Source: Pseudomonadota bacterium
GTDB taxonomy: Bacteria; Pseudomonadota; Gammaproteobacteria; Xanthomonadales; Rhodanobacteraceae
Assembly: GCA_029561145.1 (NCBI GenBank)
Contig: JAKQJM010000061.1
Span: 62,001-126,000, forward strand
Reading direction: 5' to 3'
Length of the DNA stretch: 64,000 nt
A program made the translations under genes and the position numbers. Below the pieces are notes generated by a model. It searched no databases and had not been told where the DNA came from. It saw only the letters and a program-made list of their open reading frames with translations. Positions 2,682 through 64,000 of this stretch are shown one piece after another. Position 1 is the stretch's first letter; every line of letters begins with the position of its first letter.

Positions 2682-4028
2682 GTGCCTGTCCTCCCCGCAC
2701 CAGCGATACCTCCCATGCCCGCAGAGCAAAGCGCGGTCGTCATCGATATCCGCGATGCCGACGTCTGGCAGGTGACGGCGCGCAAGCAGGACGCGCGCGT
2801 GCGCTGGTGGCTCGAACTCGGCGACCAGCTTGTGCTCGTCGGTGATCGGGGTGAAGTGCGCAAGGCTGTTGCGGATCGTGAGGTGCTCGGTGAACTCGTC
2901 GATCTTGATCGCGCGCACCTGCGCCTGCACGCGATTGGCTGCGTGCGCGAGGCACACGCTCCGGGTCGCGTGATTGCCCGGGGTGGACGCTGGGAACTGC
3001 GTGAACTGTCGATCTCGGAGCTGGCCACACCGCTGCCTTCACTGCACGATGGCCATTCCGACGAGTGGCGCGAAATCGAACCCGACAGCATCATCGCCCG
3101 GCGCTATCGCCCCGACGGCGGACCGGCACCAGCCAATCCGGATATCCAGGCCGTGGTCGACTCTATCGACACGGTGCGCTGGTTTGCCGACCTGACCACG
3201 CTGGCCGCATGGGATCGCTCGAGCTACGGCCCGGAGCTCGCGCAGTCGCGTGCCTGGATCGAGACGCAGTTCAGTGGACTCGGGCTGGCGGTCAGCGCTC
3301 CCGCCTTCACGATGCCCGGCAGCGCTGGCGGCCAGATCAGCGTCAACAACGTGATCGGCACGTGGACCGGCTCACGCTTTCCGGACCAATGGATCGTCGT
3401 CGGCGGTCATTACGATTCGCGCAATTCGAGCCTGTCGTCGATCGTCAACACGCCGGGCGCAGAAGACAATGCCTCGGGCTGCGCGGGCGTGATCGAGCTC
3501 GCGCGCGCACTCGTCGCGGTCGAGCCCGAACGCAGCATCCTCTTCATGTGCTACGCGGGCGAGGAGCAAGGCCTGTACGGCAGCAAGGCTCATGTGCAGG
3601 CGCTGCAGGTATCCGGCGACCTTGCCAAGGTGCGCGCCGTCATCACGATGGACATGATCGGCTACAGCGCCGATACGCATCTGGACGCGCTGTTCGAGAG
3701 CAGTGCGACGTGGAGCGCCTACCTCGACCAGTTCGCCGCCGCGGCAGCGACCTATGTGCCCGACCTGCACGTCACGCTCAGCACCAATCCGTTCGGGTCG
3801 GACCATATCCCCTATCTCAACGCGGGCAAGCGCACCGTGCTCGCCATCGAGTACGACTACGACAGTTACCCTTACTATCACCGCACCACCGATACGCCGG
3901 ATCATGTCGGGCCGAACGCCCAGTCCATGGGCGGCGCGATCCTCAAGACCAGTGCGGCTGTACTGGCCGAACTGGCGGGCGTCAATGACTCGATCTTCCT
4001 CGACGGATTCGAGGACGCGACTCCTTGA
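2682..4028 (+). CDS. M28-family zinc aminopeptidase with C-terminal FxDGFE motif
   Basis: 448 residues from the GTG at 2682, chosen because AAAGGAG lies five bases upstream. ATG codons at 2526, 2625, 2640 and 2715 have no ribosome-binding site. The N-terminal ~110 residues are a domain I do not recognise. The rest is a peptidase M28 catalytic domain with all five dinuclear zinc ligands in context: GGHYDS, AEDNASG, GEEQGLYGS, MDMIGY and HRTTDTPD. Enzymes of this type remove N-terminal amino acids from peptides, usually outside the cytoplasm. No obvious signal peptide is visible, which is odd for the family. The C-terminus reads DSIFLDGFEDATP, a motif shared with other exported proteins in the window. 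A signal peptidase gene follows. Confidence 0.85.
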   Translation: MPVLPAPAIPPMPAEQSAVVIDIRDADVWQVTARKQDARVRWWLELGDQLVLVGDRGEVRKAVADREVLGELVDLDRAHLRLHAIGCVREAHAPGRVIARGGRWELRELSISELATPLPSLHDGHSDEWREIEPDSIIARRYRPDGGPAPANPDIQAVVDSIDTVRWFADLTTLAAWDRSSYGPELAQSRAWIETQFSGLGLAVSAPAFTMPGSAGGQISVNNVIGTWTGSRFPDQWIVVGGHYDSRNSSLSSIVNTPGAEDNASGCAGVIELARALVAVEPERSILFMCYAGEEQGLYGSKAHVQALQVSGDLAKVRAVITMDMIGYSADTHLDALFESSATWSAYLDQFAAAAATYVPDLHVTLSTNPFGSDHIPYLNAGKRTVLAIEYDYDSYPYYHRTTDTPDHVGPNAQSMGGAILKTSAAVLAELAGVNDSIFLDGFEDATP

Positions 4029-5087: not shown

Positions 5088-7358
5088 ATGACCCTGCATC
5101 GCGCCCGTCCCATCGTCTTCGTCGCCGCGCGCCTGCTGCGTTGCGCATTTTGCCTTCTTGTCGCTTTCGCATCGCTGTTCGCGACCGCCGCGCAGGCCGA
5201 GTCGATCTTCCGCTCCGGTTTCGAGTCCCTGCAGGCGGCACCTGTCGTGCAGATCCTGCGCGACGACCATGTCGCGACACTGGAAATGGATTACGACGGC
5301 GAGAACGCCTGGGGCCAGTGGTGGACGATGACCGGTGCGGGCAACGATCCCGCCGGTTTCCTCGTCACCTGGTGGCCAGACGGCCAGCCTGCGCCCCCGA
5401 CCGGGCACCTATCGTCGGCACGCATGATCGAAGGCACCAGCGGATGCCTCGGCGAACATGGCAATGGCCCACAGGCGACCACGGCCACGCGCTGGCTCGT
5501 GACCGGCAACCGGCGCGTGCAGATCCAGCCACTGGACAATGCGTCGCCGTACCAGGTCCGTGTCGAGCGGATCAATTCGCTGGGCGAAATCATCAGCAAT
5601 GCGCGTGTCCTCGCGTTCAATGGTGGCGACAGCTCGCGCGTCGATGCGTTGCGCACGTCCATGACCTACTTCGATGATTTCAACCTGCCGCTCGGTCCGG
5701 CCGATGAGAAATTGTGGAACAATTCCACCGTCACTTCGACCGATGCGCGCTTCAACCTGTTCTTCATCAACGACCAGTTGCATGCGCATTCACTGAATGG
5801 AACGCGTCTCGACAATACCGGTGACAAGTCGCAGACCGCGCAGCGCTTCCGCAAGCCCCTGCGTATCCAGAACGGCGTTCGCCGCCGCATCGTGTTCGAC
5901 ATGGACAGTCCGCTGAGTCCGCGCTCGGTCTGGTATCTCGATCTCAACCCGGTGCGCACCGATGTCACCGGGCACGGCGATTTCTTCGATACCGAAGGGG
6001 CAACCGGATTGCCCGCCGGCATGCTGCGCCTGCGCTCCCAGTTCCAGACCTTCAGCGTCAGCATCATCGGCATGGACGGAGCCTCGCACCAGATCGCCTC
6101 GGTCGACATGGAGGACCTGGGGCGTCAGGCGGTGTCGAATGTGCGTCGTGCCTTCGAGGCGCGCGTCGGCACGGACGGCATCGAGGTGTTGATCGATGGG
6201 CGCAGTGTCATCAATGCGATGTTCACGCCGTACACCCTGCAGGCCGGCGACTACGAGCCGTTGTGGATCGCGTTTGGCTACAACACGCTGAAGGATGCCA
6301 ATCCGTACTACCTCGTGCACTGGGACAACTTCGGTTTTGATGGCCCGGTCGTCGAACCGCGCGAGGTGCACAACTACGTGACGCGAATCGCCGGCACCGA
6401 CTACCAGAAAGCCAGCCGCTGGAACAACGAGTTCCCGACGTTCAACGTGAACGTGCCCGATGACCTGCGTCCTACCGCGAGCGGCGCGACGGCGGAAGCC
6501 TGGCTCGTGCTGACCTACCAGATGGGTGATTACTCCTCGTTCAACCTGATCGCCGGCGACCATGTGACCGTCAACGGCAACACGAACTTCCCGCTGCCGC
6601 AGCGCGGCAACAACAGCGTGCCGAACGTTCCCGAGCTGTTGTCCTGGGCAGTGCCGAGCACGGTCCGCATCAAGCTCGGCGATCTCGTCCGCAATGGCTC
6701 GTCGCCGCTGCTCGTCGGCAACAACAGCTTCCAGTTCTTCGCCGACAATACCGGCATCATCGACGTGCATGTCGAGGCGTTCTATCCGCCCGGCAGCGCA
6801 CCGGCCTACACCCCGCCCGCGAGCATTCACCACTTCCCGCTGCACAGCGAACTGCCGCGGCTCGGACTACCCGCGCGCTTCGAGCAGATCGGCAGCACCC
6901 AGGTCGGCGACGAGCACCTGATCGGCGACGATCCGCCTGCCCGTATCACGGTCGGCGGCAGCGTTCCGCTGACGATGGTGATCGGCAACCACAGCTACGC
7001 GAACTGGGCGCCCGAGCTCATGCTGTTTCCGGTCAACAGCACCGAGGTGTGGAGCACCGGAGGAACCACCGGCATCGCCAAGGTCGAGGTGTTCCTGCGC
7101 GCGGTCGGCAGCGGAACCGGGCCTGGCGACCGGGTCATGCTGATCGATACCGCGCGCGACGTGCCCGCTCCGCAGGGTCGCTACACGCGATCCTTCAATA
7201 CCAGCGGTTTCGCCAATGGCGACTACGAGATCTTCGTCCAAGCGACGTCGCCCTCGGGACTCAAGAGTCATCCGAGTTACGGCAACGAAACCTACCATTG
7301 GGACGCTGCGGATCTGTCCGGGGCCTACTATCCGATCCAGATCCGCATCCAGAACTGA
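5088..7358 (+). CDS. Secreted protein of unknown function, N-terminal FxSGFE motif
   Basis: 756 residues from the ATG at 5088. The first ~32 residues form a Sec signal peptide ending in AAQA. The mature protein begins ESIFRSGFES, a variant of the short motif found at the ends of other exported proteins here. The middle looks beta-rich and concanavalin/laminin-G-like, with phrases such as YFDDFN and HWDNFGFDGP. The last third resembles Ig-like or PKD-like beta domains (for example KVEVFLRAVG). No catalytic motif was recognised. The next gene, five bases downstream, is related (shared WDNxGFDGP), so the two probably arose by duplication and are cotranscribed. A surface or secreted carbohydrate- or protein-binding role is possible but unproven. 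Confidence 0.7.
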   Translation: MTLHRARPIVFVAARLLRCAFCLLVAFASLFATAAQAESIFRSGFESLQAAPVVQILRDDHVATLEMDYDGENAWGQWWTMTGAGNDPAGFLVTWWPDGQPAPPTGHLSSARMIEGTSGCLGEHGNGPQATTATRWLVTGNRRVQIQPLDNASPYQVRVERINSLGEIISNARVLAFNGGDSSRVDALRTSMTYFDDFNLPLGPADEKLWNNSTVTSTDARFNLFFINDQLHAHSLNGTRLDNTGDKSQTAQRFRKPLRIQNGVRRRIVFDMDSPLSPRSVWYLDLNPVRTDVTGHGDFFDTEGATGLPAGMLRLRSQFQTFSVSIIGMDGASHQIASVDMEDLGRQAVSNVRRAFEARVGTDGIEVLIDGRSVINAMFTPYTLQAGDYEPLWIAFGYNTLKDANPYYLVHWDNFGFDGPVVEPREVHNYVTRIAGTDYQKASRWNNEFPTFNVNVPDDLRPTASGATAEAWLVLTYQMGDYSSFNLIAGDHVTVNGNTNFPLPQRGNNSVPNVPELLSWAVPSTVRIKLGDLVRNGSSPLLVGNNSFQFFADNTGIIDVHVEAFYPPGSAPAYTPPASIHHFPLHSELPRLGLPARFEQIGSTQVGDEHLIGDDPPARITVGGSVPLTMVIGNHSYANWAPELMLFPVNSTEVWSTGGTTGIAKVEVFLRAVGSGTGPGDRVMLIDTARDVPAPQGRYTRSFNTSGFANGDYEIFVQATSPSGLKSHPSYGNETYHWDAADLSGAYYPIQIRIQN

Positions 7359-7363
7359 AGCGG

Positions 7364-8902
7364 ATGCAGGCCGTGAAACGTCTGGCATATCGCCGCTGCG
7401 CGGCTTTTCTCGCCGCGCTGCTGACGGCACTGGTGGCCGCGCCGCGACATGCCTTCAGCGAAGCCCGTGCTGCTGGCTGCGGCCTGCCGCAGGCGGCATT
7501 CTGCGAGAACTTCGAGTCCGGGCCCGCTGCGGTTTCGGACCGTGGTCGCGGCAATGAACTGAGCCGTACGCGCTTCAGCGCATCGCGCTATGCGCCTTCG
7601 CTGTCGACCGGCGATGGCGAGACGTTCTGGGCATGGGAAGGCGAGCTCGGCATGATGGACGGCGAACCGGATGTCTGTCGCCCGGGCCTGCCAACGTTCT
7701 TCCTGCCGAGCACCGATACCCTGGTCTGCGAACCGAATGCGACGATCGGAAGCCGCTATCTACTCGGCATCGTCGGTTCGCAGAACTACGGCAGCAACGG
7801 TTACCGGATCCGTCAGCCATTCGATTTCGCGAACCGCACGGGCCGCATCGTGTTCGACGCCGACTTGAGCAACGATCCGATCCTGCTCGGCTATCTCAGC
7901 GTCACGATCGCCGAGGATCCGACGCCGACGCCGAGCTGGGACCTCAATGGCCGCGGCCCGAATCCACGCAACGGCCTGATGATCGTGTTCGTCAGCAGCA
8001 CGATCGACGTGCACGACGTGCGCGACCAGGCGATGACGACGCTATCAGGCCCAGTCAGTACGCCGCCGTCGCAACGCGGCCATCTCTCGCGTGTCGAGTT
8101 GCGCCTGTCGCGGACCGCGCTTGAGGTTCTCACCTCGGAGCCCTCCCCCGATGGCCTGACGTTCGGCGCCGTGGTCAGCCGCAGGAGCGTCACGTTTCCG
8201 CAACCGCTGACATTCACGCGCGGCTACGTGACCCTGGTCGGGCACAACCATGCGACCTGGAAATATGCGATCACCTACGCAGGACTGCCACGCCCGATGC
8301 CTTCATGGAATACCTATTGGGACAACATCGGCTTCGACGGACCGGCCATCACGAACACGCGCGAGTACGAAATCCCCGACGCCGGCATACCCTCGAACGA
8401 AACGACGATCGACGAACATCCACCGGGCACGTTCACGACCGTCCTGCACCACGGGCTCAGTCTCGGCTACACGATCCCGGATGGCGAAAATGCGACGGGC
8501 GCACCGCTGACCTTCAGCAACGTGTCGATGGCGGGCGCCACGCGCGCGCGACTCGTGTTCAACGGTTACTACCAGGGTCACGACAACAACGAGCAGCTGC
8601 GCCTCGGCAATGGACGACTGCGCTACCGGATCAACGATCATCCACGCCACGACCGCGCGTTCACGCCGGGCGAGATCGCGATGCTCGACGAGCCGGGTCA
8701 GACCGGCGGTTTCAACCACTCGTTCGATATCCCGTTGTCGGAACTGCACGATGGCGACAACAGCGTGCGCTTCTCGACCCTCAACATCGAGTCCGGCTAT
8801 CCGAACGCGGTCGTCAACCTCGACCTGCTGATCGACTTCGATCCCGATCCGGTTTTTTTCGACAGCTTCGAACTTCCTGGCCGACAAGACAGTTCGCGCT
8901 GA
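7364..8902 (+). CDS. Secreted protein of unknown function, paralogue of the upstream gene
   Basis: 512 residues from the ATG at 7364, five bases after the previous stop. A signal peptide occupies about the first 36 residues. Near the mature N-terminus comes QAAFCENFESGP, and the C-terminus ends DPVFFDSFELPGRQDSSR, so variants of the recurring F..xF-E motif occur at both ends. The centre shares RIVFDxD and YWDNIGFDGP with the upstream protein and has the look of a lectin-like beta-sandwich. No enzyme motif was seen. Tandem position, shared motifs and nearly abutting reading frames suggest co-expression. Function unknown. Confidence 0.7.
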   Translation: MQAVKRLAYRRCAAFLAALLTALVAAPRHAFSEARAAGCGLPQAAFCENFESGPAAVSDRGRGNELSRTRFSASRYAPSLSTGDGETFWAWEGELGMMDGEPDVCRPGLPTFFLPSTDTLVCEPNATIGSRYLLGIVGSQNYGSNGYRIRQPFDFANRTGRIVFDADLSNDPILLGYLSVTIAEDPTPTPSWDLNGRGPNPRNGLMIVFVSSTIDVHDVRDQAMTTLSGPVSTPPSQRGHLSRVELRLSRTALEVLTSEPSPDGLTFGAVVSRRSVTFPQPLTFTRGYVTLVGHNHATWKYAITYAGLPRPMPSWNTYWDNIGFDGPAITNTREYEIPDAGIPSNETTIDEHPPGTFTTVLHHGLSLGYTIPDGENATGAPLTFSNVSMAGATRARLVFNGYYQGHDNNEQLRLGNGRLRYRINDHPRHDRAFTPGEIAMLDEPGQTGGFNHSFDIPLSELHDGDNSVRFSTLNIESGYPNAVVNLDLLIDFDPDPVFFDSFELPGRQDSSR

Positions 8903-59605: not shown

Positions 59606-60601
59606 ATGACCGATCCCAAGCGCAACGATTTCACCCTCGATCCCGACGATGGCGAACGCCTGTCGAACCTGGTCGGGCCCTTCGATGAACACCTGCGCCA
59701 GATCGAGCTGCGTCTCGGCGTCGAGATCGCCAACCGCGGCAACGTGTTTCGCGTGCTCGGCGACGAGCGAGCGGTGCAACTGGCGAGTCGCGTCTTGCGC
59801 GATCTCTATGCGCTGACCGAAAACGAGGCGCTCACGGCACCGCAGATCAACCTGCACCTGCAGGAATCCGGCATCGAGGCAATTGCCGCCGAGGCCGCGG
59901 AAGGCGTCCAGGAGGTCGCCGTCAAGGTCAAGCGCGGCATGATCAAGGGACGCGGCCCGAACCAGGCGCGCTACCTGCATGCGATCGCCACGCACGACAT
60001 CAACTTCGGCATCGGCCCGGCCGGCACGGGCAAGACCTACCTGGCCGTCGCGATGGCGGTCGATGCGCTCAACGACAACCGCGCGCAGCGGTTGATCCTT
60101 GTGCGTCCCGCGGTCGAGGCCGGCGAGAAACTCGGCTTCCTGCCGGGCGACCTGACCCAGAAAGTCGATCCGTATCTGCGTCCACTGTACGACGCGCTGT
60201 ACGAGATGCTCGGCATCGAGCGCGTCGGCAAACTGATCGAACGCAATGTCATCGAGATCGCCCCGCTGGCTTACATGCGCGGCCGCACGCTCAACGACTC
60301 GTTCGTGATCCTCGACGAGGCGCAGAACACGACGGTCGAACAGATGAAGATGTTCCTGACCCGCATCGGCTTCGGCTCGGTCGCCGTGGTCACCGGCGAC
60401 GTCACCCAGACCGACCTGCCCCGGCACATCAAGTCCGGCTTGCGCGATGCGATCGACGTGCTGCGCGATGTCGACGGGATCAGCTTCACGTTCTTCAACT
60501 CGAAGGACGTCGTGCGCCATCCACTCGTGCAGCGCATCGTGCGTGCCTACGAGGCGCGCGAGGATGAACTCGAGAAAACCAGATCAGGAAAATCCGAATG
60601 A
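59606..60601 (+). CDS. phoH: PhoH-family ATPase
   Basis: 331 residues from the ATG at 59606. An N-terminal KH-like region (FDEHLRQIELRLGVEI) is followed by Walker A GPAGTGKTY and Walker B ILDEAQN, with VTGDVTQTDLP after it. PhoH (YbeZ) works with YbeY in rRNA processing and ribosome quality control. The stop codon overlaps the start of the beta-propeller gene by four bases. Confidence 0.95.
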   Translation: MTDPKRNDFTLDPDDGERLSNLVGPFDEHLRQIELRLGVEIANRGNVFRVLGDERAVQLASRVLRDLYALTENEALTAPQINLHLQESGIEAIAAEAAEGVQEVAVKVKRGMIKGRGPNQARYLHAIATHDINFGIGPAGTGKTYLAVAMAVDALNDNRAQRLILVRPAVEAGEKLGFLPGDLTQKVDPYLRPLYDALYEMLGIERVGKLIERNVIEIAPLAYMRGRTLNDSFVILDEAQNTTVEQMKMFLTRIGFGSVAVVTGDVTQTDLPRHIKSGLRDAIDVLRDVDGISFTFFNSKDVVRHPLVQRIVRAYEAREDELEKTRSGKSE

Positions 60602-61461
60602 GCCGGTTGTCGCACAAGTGGGTGGTTGCCGCGGGCCTGCTCGCCCCGTTGCTGGCCGCGGGCCAGACCCTGAGCGGACCGGAAAGCGTCGAGTTCCATC
60701 CACGCCTCGGTCGCAGCCTGATCAGCAGCACGGACAACGGCACGATCGTCGCCCGTGCAGAAGACGGAACGCTCAGCCTGTTCACCGCGGCACCAAGCGC
60801 GCCGTATGGCATCGAACTGCTGGCTGGCACCCTGTTCGTGCTCGATTCCGGAAGGATCAAGGGTTACGACATCGACAGCGCGATGGAAGTCATGAACCTG
60901 GCGTTGAGCGGGGCCAGCTTTCTCAACGGCATCAGCTCGAACGGTGTCGATACGCTCTACGTCAGCGATTTCAGCGCAAAAACGATCCGTTCAATTGACG
61001 TGTCGAATCTCGCCGTGCCGGTGCCGGCAACGCCGATATCGACCGGCAGCTCGGTGCCGAACGGCGTCGTCTACGATCGCATCGGCAACCGGCTCCTGAT
61101 AGCGACCTGGGGCAGCAACGCGAAAATCCTCGCGCTGGATCTCGTTCCGGGCGCGACGCCGGTACCCCTGATCAACACGACGCTGGCAAATATCGACGGC
61201 ATCACGCTCGATTGTCGCGGAGCGATCATCGTTGCCGCCTGGAGCGGATGTACCTCGGGCGGCTGCCTGCGCCGCTTCGACCCACCTTTCACGCTTGGCT
61301 CGCCGGCGCAGAGCATCGTCGACGGCCTCTCGGCCCCGGCCGACATCGACTTCGATCCGGCCAGCGCGAGGATCGGCGTACCGCAATCCGGCAACGACAC
61401 GGTGAGCCTGCATGCCAGCACCTGCGAATCCGCGCTGTTCTACGGCGATTTCGAACGCTGA
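60598..61461 (+). CDS. Secreted beta-propeller protein, C-terminal FxxxFE motif
   Basis: 287 residues. Signal peptide (MSRLSHKWVVAAGLLAPLLAAG), then SMP-30/NHL-like repeats (SSTDNGTIVARAEDG, PYGIELLAGTLFVLDSGRIKGYD, PNGVVYDRIGNRLLIATWG). The end reads CESALFYGDFER, a variant of the motif shared by other exported proteins here. It starts on ATGA overlapping phoH and ends nine bases before ybeY, so it is inserted into, and translated with, an rRNA-processing operon. A catalytic role cannot be read. Confidence 0.8.
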   Translation: MSRLSHKWVVAAGLLAPLLAAGQTLSGPESVEFHPRLGRSLISSTDNGTIVARAEDGTLSLFTAAPSAPYGIELLAGTLFVLDSGRIKGYDIDSAMEVMNLALSGASFLNGISSNGVDTLYVSDFSAKTIRSIDVSNLAVPVPATPISTGSSVPNGVVYDRIGNRLLIATWGSNAKILALDLVPGATPVPLINTTLANIDGITLDCRGAIIVAAWSGCTSGGCLRRFDPPFTLGSPAQSIVDGLSAPADIDFDPASARIGVPQSGNDTVSLHASTCESALFYGDFER

Positions 61462-62044: not shown

Positions 62045-64000
62045 TCAGTGTGCAGCGACAGGATCGAATCCATCGGCAAAGATCGAATCGGACTGGACTG
62101 CGCAGCCTTGCACCTTGAGGTCATCGATGTAGAAGCCGTCAGGGGCCCGACCGACCGATGAATCGGTGCCAAGACGGAAGCGGAACGAAACGGTCTGCCC
62201 GGCCTGGTTGTCGAGATCGACAACGTAGCGCGTCCAGTCCTGCGGGTCTCCGCACCAGGCCGAAGCCCCCGCAAGCGGGTTGGCCTGCGTGTTGCTGATC
62301 GGTCCCTTGTAGTTTCCGATCAGCAACCGGGCATCGGGCACCTGGGTCCACGAGGCACCGGCGTTCGATGACACTTCGAGGATCGCGCCATCGAAGCACG
62401 CGGATCCGGACTGGTCGTCGACGGTCTGATGGTTCCAGAATTGCAGGGTCAATGGCGCCTGCCCGACTGGCAGGACGATGGCCGGCGAGACCAGGCGTTG
62501 ATCGGAAACCGACGCGAGGTCCTGGGCAAGGAACGCCTTGACGCCACTGTGCGTCCTCGATCCGACCGCCGCCCAGGTGTTCTGCGACCCCGAACTCGTC
62601 CAGGCGGAATTGTCCGACTCGAAGTCGGTGCCATAGATCACGCTCGATATCGTTCCAACCGGGCAATCCCCGGGCAGCGATCGCGTCATGAAGGTGAAGG
62701 TCGCCGACGAGATCGTTTCGCCACACGGATTCTTCGCGATCACGCGCCAGAAGAATCGCGTCGCACTGTCGAGATTGATCCCGACCGAATGTGTCGTCGA
62801 GGGTGACGTCGCTGCATAGACGATATGCGCGAAGCCCGCATCCGTGGCGATCTCGATGCGGTAATTGGCAGCCGTCGCAGCAGCCGCCCAGTGCAATTGC
62901 GGAGCCAGCGCCACGTTGCTGGCTGCATTGGCCGGTGAGTCCAGCGCAAATGTCGACGGGGCCGAGGCGGCGACATCGAGCGCCAGCGTGCGCGTGCGCA
63001 CCCGCGTTCCTGCCGTGCCGGTCACGCCGACGAGGTAGGCGCCGGCAGGCGCGGCGCCGAGGTTGCCGATGGTCAGCGTGCTGCTGCCCGGCACAGCCGA
63101 CGGGTTGGTCGAAAACGCGATGCTCGTGCCGTTCGGATTGCCCGCCGCGGACAGCGCGACCGGCGTGTTGAAGCCGAGGATCGAACCGAACGACAGGCTG
63201 AATGGCAGCACTGCCGTCGTCGCGGAGCAGACGCCGACCGAGAGCGGATTGATCGCCATCGTGAAGGTCGGCTGTTGCACGCAGTTGTTGCAGACCAGGG
63301 CGAAATCCTGGTCCGTACCGTCGCCGACGTTCGGCACGCCATCGCCGGCGATGTTGAATCCGGTCACCCGGATCGTCAGTGGATTGGCGGCACTCGCCGG
63401 CAGGAACACGGCCTCGTAGTTGTTCCTGGTGTCGGGTGTTCCCCCGAGCGTGCTCCATTGCCCGACGAACCGGTTGCCTTGATAGGTGGCCGCCCCTCGT
63501 TTCACTTCGAGATCGAGGTTGTTGACCTGCGGGCTCGTGCCGATCGCACCTGCGGCATCGGTGTAGGCAAGGACGACACGCAGCGGTTTCGTCGGGTCGG
63601 CGATCGCTCCCGTCCAGGTCCAGACCTGGCCGCTGTCGGAAAGCAACTGGGTCTGGTTGACGATGAAGTTCGACGTGTGGCCGAACATGTCCTCGAGATT
63701 CGGCATGCCGTAACCCTGGGCATTGGACGGCAGGTCACCCCCTGCGCCGACCCCGGTCAAGTGGGTCGGATGCGCGATCAACCAGGCTTTCATCAGTGCG
63801 GGCGAAGGCGCCGAAGCAGCCCCACCATCGAACGACAGTTCGCCACGGTCATGCGCTATCCACCAATAGGCAAGCGATGCGACGCCGGCAATGGCCGGGG
63901 TGGCGTGGCTGGTGCCGGTCGCCGCGGCGAAGGTCGCGTTGCCGAGAGGCCGCGCGGGATCGCAGATCGTCGTGCCGGTCGTCGGTTCCGCCCTCGTTCC
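62045..64000 (-). CDS. Secreted subtilisin-family (S8) protease, 3' part, cut by window edge
   Basis: The open frame runs from the stop at 62045 to the right edge without interruption (652 codons). The first visible residues contain the S8 catalytic Ser in GTSHATPAIAG; the Asp and His parts lie beyond the window. A P/homB-like beta domain follows, then Ig-like and fibronectin-like segments and a MAM/laminin-G-like C-terminal domain (YIDDLKVQG). The end is DSIFADGFDPVAAH, with a related internal YGTDFESDN. An extracellular protease with several adhesion-type domains is expected. The first Met seen at 63793 is internal, not the start. Confidence 0.88.
   Translation of the reverse strand, partial: GTRAEPTTGTTICDPARPLGNATFAAATGTSHATPAIAGVASLAYWWIAHDRGELSFDGGAASAPSPALMKAWLIAHPTHLTGVGAGGDLPSNAQGYGMPNLEDMFGHTSNFIVNQTQLLSDSGQVWTWTGAIADPTKPLRVVLAYTDAAGAIGTSPQVNNLDLEVKRGAATYQGNRFVGQWSTLGGTPDTRNNYEAVFLPASAANPLTIRVTGFNIAGDGVPNVGDGTDQDFALVCNNCVQQPTFTMAINPLSVGVCSATTAVLPFSLSFGSILGFNTPVALSAAGNPNGTSIAFSTNPSAVPGSSTLTIGNLGAAPAGAYLVGVTGTAGTRVRTRTLALDVAASAPSTFALDSPANAASNVALAPQLHWAAAATAANYRIEIATDAGFAHIVYAATSPSTTHSVGINLDSATRFFWRVIAKNPCGETISSATFTFMTRSLPGDCPVGTISSVIYGTDFESDNSAWTSSGSQNTWAAVGSRTHSGVKAFLAQDLASVSDQRLVSPAIVLPVGQAPLTLQFWNHQTVDDQSGSACFDGAILEVSSNAGASWTQVPDARLLIGNYKGPISNTQANPLAGASAWCGDPQDWTRYVVDLDNQAGQTVSFRFRLGTDSSVGRAPDGFYIDDLKVQGCAVQSDSIFADGFDPVAAH

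Follow-up and report, generated by a model that had tools for sequence, protein, structure and literature searches.

Why should proteins of unrelated folds, encoded within one 64-kb stretch of DNA (the window, that is, the whole of the 64,000 nucleotides analysed), share a short aromatic-acidic motif near their ends? The initial annotation had noticed such a motif in five exported proteins and had considered a sorting, anchoring or secretion signal as well as a small structural cap. In this study, we propose, with a probability of roughly 0.6, that the motif D-x-[IVL]-F-x-x-G-F-[ED], which mostly takes the form hFxDRFE in one genus, is a portable outer-membrane export tag for one kind of type II secretion system (T2SS), referred to below as T2SS-A.

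The motif in the window and in its genome

Every copy that had been listed was found in the sequence, and not all of them are clean members of the motif. The M28 peptidase (ORF 2490/2526 to 4028, plus strand; Peptidase_M28 match at 6.6e-38) carries the C-terminal tag DSIFLDGFEDATP (3987..4025, plus strand), and an S8 protease, whose frame exceeds the window and corresponds to a 1368-residue frame in locus L249, carries DSIFADGFD at its C-terminus (62063..62089, minus strand); both tails are perfect examples of the motif. To these can be added the N-terminal copy IFRSGFE (5205..5225, plus strand), two residues past the AQA that closes a likely signal peptide, in an ORF ending at 7358 without a match to any Pfam family (E up to 1). 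The other listed copies lack the glycine and are looser variants: AFCENFE (7496..7516, plus strand), close to where the mature protein of the ORF ending at 8902 begins, has N at this position, VFFDSFE (8852..8872, plus strand) at the C-terminus of the same ORF has S, and LFYGDFE (61435..61455, plus strand) at the C-terminus of a beta-propeller protein (ORF 60568-61461, with an SGL match under the curated cut-off) has D. Jelly-roll (MAM/LamG) domains start with F..[DN]FE.G...W at their first strand, and AFCENFESG at 7496 and an internal IYGTDFE of the S8 protein may be ordinary starts of this kind, which does not account for tails lying beyond the last strand. The M28 peptidase had been singled out as tagged yet devoid of a visible signal peptide, and indeed no clear one was seen in it. 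Two relatives are encoded in L203, one of which, 60% identical, starts with an apparent signal peptide (by eye), and the start of the M28 gene in the window, or a frame upstream of it, is uncertain. In L249, two related large S8 proteases lie no more than about 6 kb apart, both tagged and sharing 57% identity over 577 residues.

In the genome of the window (3.6 Mb, 149 contigs, 99.4% complete), chance was gauged by reversing each pattern: DGFE was found at 46 places and its reverse at 10, F..GF[ED] at 121 vs 21, [FLIMV]F..GF[ED] at 83 vs 3 and D.[FLIMV]F..GF[ED] at 59 vs 0. All 83 places of the third pattern were inspected. A script put 66 of them within 20 residues of a stop codon; six were discarded because they lay in another frame, resembled background or could not be judged (L005, L030, L039, L044 and two in L115), and 60 C-terminal tails were left. 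Their profile reads D-x-I/L/V-F-x-(mostly D/N/H/S)-G-F-D/E, with D at -2 in 52 of 60; the motif makes up the last residues of the protein in 18 tails and is trailed by 1-14 residues in the others. The remaining 17 places comprise three shortly past a likely signal peptide (position 5205 of the window, L091 and L234), a few internal copies, one at a contig edge and others that appear by eye to be background. Tandem tags at the end of a single protein, such as a pair of copies spaced by about 11 residues, were seen in L137, L186 and L194. The four glycine codons are used nearly equally in the 60 tails (17, 16, 14 and 13), so that conservation acts on the protein and not on a DNA repeat, and a mobile DNA repeat as the source of the tag was ruled out by this codon diversity. 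The motif was thus confirmed as real, and it is more widespread than the initial annotation stated.

Tagged proteins and the placement of the tag

A crude, home-made signal-peptide test, which tries many start codons, was passed by 49 of the 54 tailed ORFs that are complete at their 5' side. Among ORFs of at least 200 aa, 44 of 48 tailed ones were positive vs 52 of 132 untagged control ORFs, which came from the same stretches plus the window and include spurious frames, and a stricter score gave 39 of 48 vs 28 of 132. Family scans of 53 out of 55 tailed proteins (some 5'-truncated, and one, L030, later removed from the tails) identified S8 (5), glucose/sorbosone dehydrogenase (GSDH, 3), M28 (2), M12B (2), M14 (1) and Endonuclease I (1) families, with beta-helices and propellers among the other cargo. 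The same tail is therefore borne by peptidase, nuclease, dehydrogenase, beta-helix and propeller folds, and the tagged domains are unrelated, as had been claimed from the window. Several choice-of-anchor models match tailed proteins, and no family for the tail itself was found among the 25 listed of 51 NCBIfam and the 25 listed of 50 Pfam families in these scans, which can miss very short family models.

Where the tag sits was followed in homologues of the S8 protease, searched in 16 genomes, four of them from genus g31; seven genomes had matches (32 rows, 30 loci), and 24 distinct closed S8-like frames, most of them 5'-truncated, were kept after five cut frames and one duplicate had been left out. 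With a motif expression that was widened after variants had been seen, 21 of the 24 frames carry the motif, 18 near the C-terminus and three (L323, L335 and L331) in an internal loop. These three have no copy at the C-terminus, and L335 has a second, weaker match. As to the three motif-less frames, near-variants stand at the ends of L336 and L349, and L328 (G006, family f7) has none. In the S8 model, the internal position is a loop that joins strand 346-355 to strand 366-370 in a domain resembling Fn3 by eye, and the tail (569-582) is modelled as coil with pLDDT below 50 (near 32) behind a well-modelled domain; the M28 peptidase was modelled poorly (mean pLDDT 50.8), and that model was set aside. 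By eye, the motif also lies shortly past a likely signal peptide at 5205 in the window and in L091, L234, L276 and L277, and past twin-arginine-like signals in L311 and L319. Placement at the C-terminus, at the N-terminus and in loops argues against cleavage of a C-terminal signal and fits an exposed binding motif, and the behaviour of the tag is best explained as that of a docking motif.

The structural reading, a short beta-turn that closes beta-rich domains, could appeal to D/N-G being a classic tight turn and to the many beta-rich cargo proteins, but it is hardly credible, and so is chance, the reversed control being near 0. The same tail occurs on proteins of other folds (peptidases and a nuclease), copies have been relocated to N-termini and loops, the S8 model shows the tail as coil of low confidence, and sister genera of a single family hold only 0-2 copies.

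In PEP-CTERM, GlyGly-CTERM/rhombosortase and MYXO-CTERM tails, a signature motif precedes a hydrophobic helix, and a basic cluster ends the protein, and the C-terminal domain of T9SS substrates is folded and about 80 residues long. The tag resembles these tails in being a short C-terminal element on unrelated proteins with signal peptides, in its patchy spread tied to a machine and in the cargo families, which overlap. Unlike the CTERM tails, it is about nine residues long, lacks a transmembrane stretch or basic end, occurs also at N-termini and in loops and bears no sign of cleavage: only 0-14 residues follow the motif in the 60 tails, with no hydrophobic or basic stretch, and none of the PEP-, GlyGly- or MYXO-CTERM tail families was among the 25 listed of the 51 families for the 53 tailed proteins. 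Its conserved part of about nine residues, coil in the S8 model, also differs from the T9SS domain. A cleaved or transpeptidated C-terminal anchor is disfavoured by the N-terminal and internal copies.

Retention at the cell surface by other means, in which tagged proteins get outside (perhaps by a T2SS) and the motif then binds a surface receptor or matrix like the choice-of-anchor tails of other phyla, seems rather unlikely. The cargo families bear MYXO-CTERM, rhombosortase or other anchors elsewhere, and tandem tags as in L137, L186 and L194 would increase avidity. In addition, passages of a report on Wenzhouxiangella AB-CW3, a member of the order, describe that no proteolytic activity is excreted into the medium and that the proteases appear cell-bound (PMC7691419), a comparison that concerns proteolysis only, the tag content of the strain aside. 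On the other hand, the motif is not followed by hydrophobic or basic residues of the kind seen in anchors, which moreover seldom occur at N-termini or in loops, and there is no candidate receptor; retention is also not exclusive of secretion.

Distribution of the tag and of T2SS-A

Across 299 genomes of the order, counts of D.[FLIMV]F..GF[ED] are bimodal, with 0-5 copies in 212 genomes, 6-9 in nine and 10-179 in 78, and the reversed pattern gave at most three per genome; these are pattern counts, frames having been inspected in the window's genome, G063, G097, G091 and G237. Tag-rich and tag-poor genera stand side by side within families, 11 of 76 genomes being rich in family f1 and two of 78 in f2, and copy number in sister genera of one family is as low as 0-2. 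G091 and G237, the rich members of f2, have 10 of 11 and 13 of 16 matches, respectively, within nine residues of a stop. Among 274 genomes drawn from Gammaproteobacteria, the 271 outside the order carry at most five copies, and the tag is confined to one order among the Gammaproteobacteria sampled. In named records, D.IF..GFE followed by a stop was found in at least 117 stretches; the 80 matches listed include many from Marinicella, Dokdonella, Rudaea, Pseudofulvimonas and Lysobacterales MAGs, and also some MAGs labelled Alcanivoracaceae or no more closely than Gammaproteobacteria or Proteobacteria, as well as 10 records from elsewhere. The tail lies in a frame of at least 80 aa in 96 of these stretches, and in none of the 10 records from outside these groups.

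As would be expected of type II substrates, most tagged proteins have Sec/Tat-like signal peptides and a T2SS is encoded in the same genome. A scan for the secretin GspD covered 56 chosen genomes and gave a match above cut-off in all 31 tag-rich genomes of this panel. Ten tag-rich f1 genomes have two high-scoring secretins each, and ten tag-poor f1 genomes are without the secretin scoring 560-585 bits. In a tree built from 20 GspD proteins, two deep clades separate with full support: clade A holds the secretins taken as the 560-585 bit type from 11 tag-rich genomes and G009, and clade B the other secretin of G000, G036, G091 and G009 together with those of G095, G105, G101 and G063. Profiles were then run over the 299 genomes, T2SS-A being called from a clade-A GspD profile at E 1e-170 or better, or from GspC (PF11356) at better than 1e-10, cut-offs that were picked after the tables had been seen. 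By these markers T2SS-A is present in 72 of 78 genomes rich in the GF tag vs 47 of 221 others. The contrast holds within f1 (11 of 11 rich vs 3 of 65 others) and f2 (2 of 2 vs 1 of 76), and is not significant in f8 (1 of 2 vs 5 of 37, p 0.29) or, by GF tags, in f10 (5 of 6 vs 33 of 37, p 0.86).

A second form of the tag occurs in f10. Genus g31 of this family (30 genomes) has 0-3 GF tags per genome, yet a T2SS-A marker in 26 of 30, and the S8 homologues of its four searched genomes terminate in IFDDRFE, IFEDRFE, IFLDRFE, VFEDRFE and similar strings. As a genome-wide pattern, [FLIMV]F.D[RHQ]F[ED] reaches 10-87 copies per genome in g31, for 24 of its 30 members; elsewhere it reaches 40 in G139 and 13 in G163, both of f10, and at most eight in every other genome. 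The objection that T2SS-A without tags refutes the link is thereby partly dissolved. S8 homologues (E up to 1e-8) were absent from nine of the 16 genomes searched (the tag-poor G095, G115, G198, G269, G101, G013 and G061, together with G082 and G127), and thus loss of the tail is not traceable in orthologues of those nine. With GF and RF tags taken jointly, T2SS-A markers are present in 93 of 103 tag-rich genomes vs 26 of 196 others.

Among tag-rich genomes at least 95% complete, 58 of 59 have T2SS-A. Incompleteness alone would conceal it in about seven of the 103, and it is absent in 10; in two of these, a fragment of a clade-A GspD (G229) or a weak GspC match (G188) was seen. The GF-rich genomes without either marker are G063 (97% complete) and G048, G059, G118, G178 and G182 (77-94%). 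That the tags of G063 and G097 (98% complete), both of f8 and without either marker, are spurious was rejected on inspection, 11 of 14 and seven of eight matches looking genuine, and these genomes therefore stand as counter-evidence to the link with T2SS-A; G122 (88% complete), also without either marker, has six matches by pattern count only. Conversely, 26 genomes have T2SS-A with fewer than 10 tags of either form, among them f6, f7, G082, G127, G156, G176, G230, G257, G275 and six of the 30 g31 genomes. G257, G275 and G230, which are tag-poor members of f1, have a clade-A-like GspD together with GspC, genes that were possibly acquired separately with other substrates. The genomes are related, so that p-values for the association are not independent evidence; shared ancestry accounts for part of the correlation, and the co-loss tracks few clades.

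The same exceptions bear on recognition by T2SS in general, or by T2SS-B, with T2SS-A as a mere phylogenetic companion of the tag. T2SS-B is presumably like Xps of Xanthomonas, judging from its gene order and GspD. G063 and G097 are tagged without T2SS-A markers, and the GspD of G063 is of clade B. But GspD scored above cut-off in ten of ten tag-poor f1 and eight of nine tag-poor f2 genomes with no tags at all, the three of these placed in the tree fall in clade B, and 170 of the 180 genomes without T2SS-A markers are not tag-rich. We consider this reading improbable.

Chance sharing of the distribution with some unrelated periplasmic or outer-membrane factor (a chaperone, quality control or another exporter) that reads the tag appears very improbable. 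The partner genes profiled were those of T2SS only, thus another gene could fit better, and clustering of the neighbours of tagged genes at 117 named loci yielded no dedicated partner and no candidate of this kind. Against it, T2SS is a known route for folded enzymes delivered by Sec or Tat, and the RF variant likewise accompanies T2SS-A. A family of seven proteins, which we take to resemble winged-helix regulators, adjoins tagged genes in six loci (L143 and five others). On contig C111 of the window's genome, a T2SS-A locus (L253) lies about 12-20 kb from a cluster of tagged genes (L091/L252), in which one gene holds the motif within a very long frame.

Candidate recognition by GspC and meaning of the tag

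While T2SS-A as the reader of the tag is inferred from co-occurrence, the PDZ domain of its GspC as the binding site is a further inference. Twelve T2SS-A loci contain gspC and gspD, with gspE and gspF seen in some, and genes G-M were not identified in the T2SS-A loci examined, so that T2SS-A may be encoded in more than one place or use components of T2SS-B. GspC of T2SS-A is made up of an HR region and a C-terminal PDZ domain: 12 of these proteins align to that of G000 through most or all of the PDZ region, six of six examined with Pfam match T2SSC and six of six a PDZ family (three above and three below the PDZ cut-off), and the PDZ of G000 matches solved OutC, PulC and EpsC chains in phmmer. 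PDZ is a peptide-binding fold. The T2SS-B equivalents of GspC, chosen by eye, gave no T2SSC or PDZ match in five of five at E up to 0.1, and sub-cut-off GspC matches were seen near a second GspD in G279, G031, G291 and G214. The lack of a PDZ match, in which T2SS-B differs from T2SS-A, agrees with passages on XpsC of Xanthomonas, in which a helix stands where the PDZ would be (PMC11981180).

All 21 f10 GspC proteins aligned, from GF and RF genomes alike, extend through the PDZ, and natural PDZ loss was not seen among them. In the frame of the G009 protein, the 12 from RF genomes have D/E at 309 and E at 320, and eight from GF genomes have no acidic residue there, which makes a charge match to the Arg of the RF tag possible as read from this alignment, the positions being chosen post hoc and confounded by clade. 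At GspD 240 and 246, RF genomes have acidic and GF genomes neutral or basic residues, with the same post hoc choice and confounding.

We propose that tagged proteins would be carried over the inner membrane by Sec or Tat through an ordinary signal peptide and would fold in the periplasm, leaving the tag exposed on a flexible piece, usually the C-terminus and sometimes the new N-terminus or a surface loop. T2SS-A, of the Out/Eps/Pul kind, would then bind the tag, most likely in the peptide groove of the GspC PDZ and possibly with help from the N-domains of GspD, and the protein would go through the secretin. Of the possibilities first raised for the motif, a signal is thus strongly favoured, since the proteins that bear it are exported, it is modular and a secretion machine co-occurs with it, and a structural cap and a cut C-terminal anchor are disfavoured.

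How T2SS recognizes folded, unrelated substrates is a long-standing question. In passages of a 2021 and a 2025 paper, a common linear T2SS signal is stated to be lacking (PMC7949064, PMC12369372), and a nine-residue exposed region of the PelI Fn3 domain is described as a secretion signal that contacts GspC and GspD (PMC7949064). It is also described there that some substrates of Dickeya and Vibrio depend on the GspC PDZ and that the PelI Fn3 domain binds the OutC PDZ (PMC12369372, PMC7949064). T2SS-A resembles these systems in its GspC with HR and PDZ, matching OutC, PulC and EpsC. Their signals (PelI loop 3, the VesB Ig fold) are, in the same passages, structural, composite and substrate-specific, whereas one linear motif is found here on about 60 unrelated proteins, and at up to 179 places in a relative by pattern count. 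No description of the tag was found in literature on sorting signals of the group, T2SS recognition, C-terminal motifs or the genera concerned, titles listed for literal tag strings were unrelated, and Pfam and NCBIfam scans gave no curated family for it. As a sorting signal, the tag is of a kind already known; as a linear T2SS signal, it would be the first, going by the passages cited above. The full claim is of a first linear and portable T2SS signal that is bound by the GspC PDZ, serves about 60 substrates here and, in some relatives, perhaps many more than 100, has co-evolved in two or more dialects (GF, RF) and can be placed at either end or in a loop; it is advanced tentatively, at odds a little short of even.

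If it is true, a genome-wide tag would make T2SS recognition simply testable, by deleting, moving or grafting nine residues, secretomes would become predictable from sequence, and a handle would be available for exporting folded proteins from the Gram-negative cell. Even if another machine reads the tag, about 60 exported proteins of one genome amount to a sizeable annotation gap.
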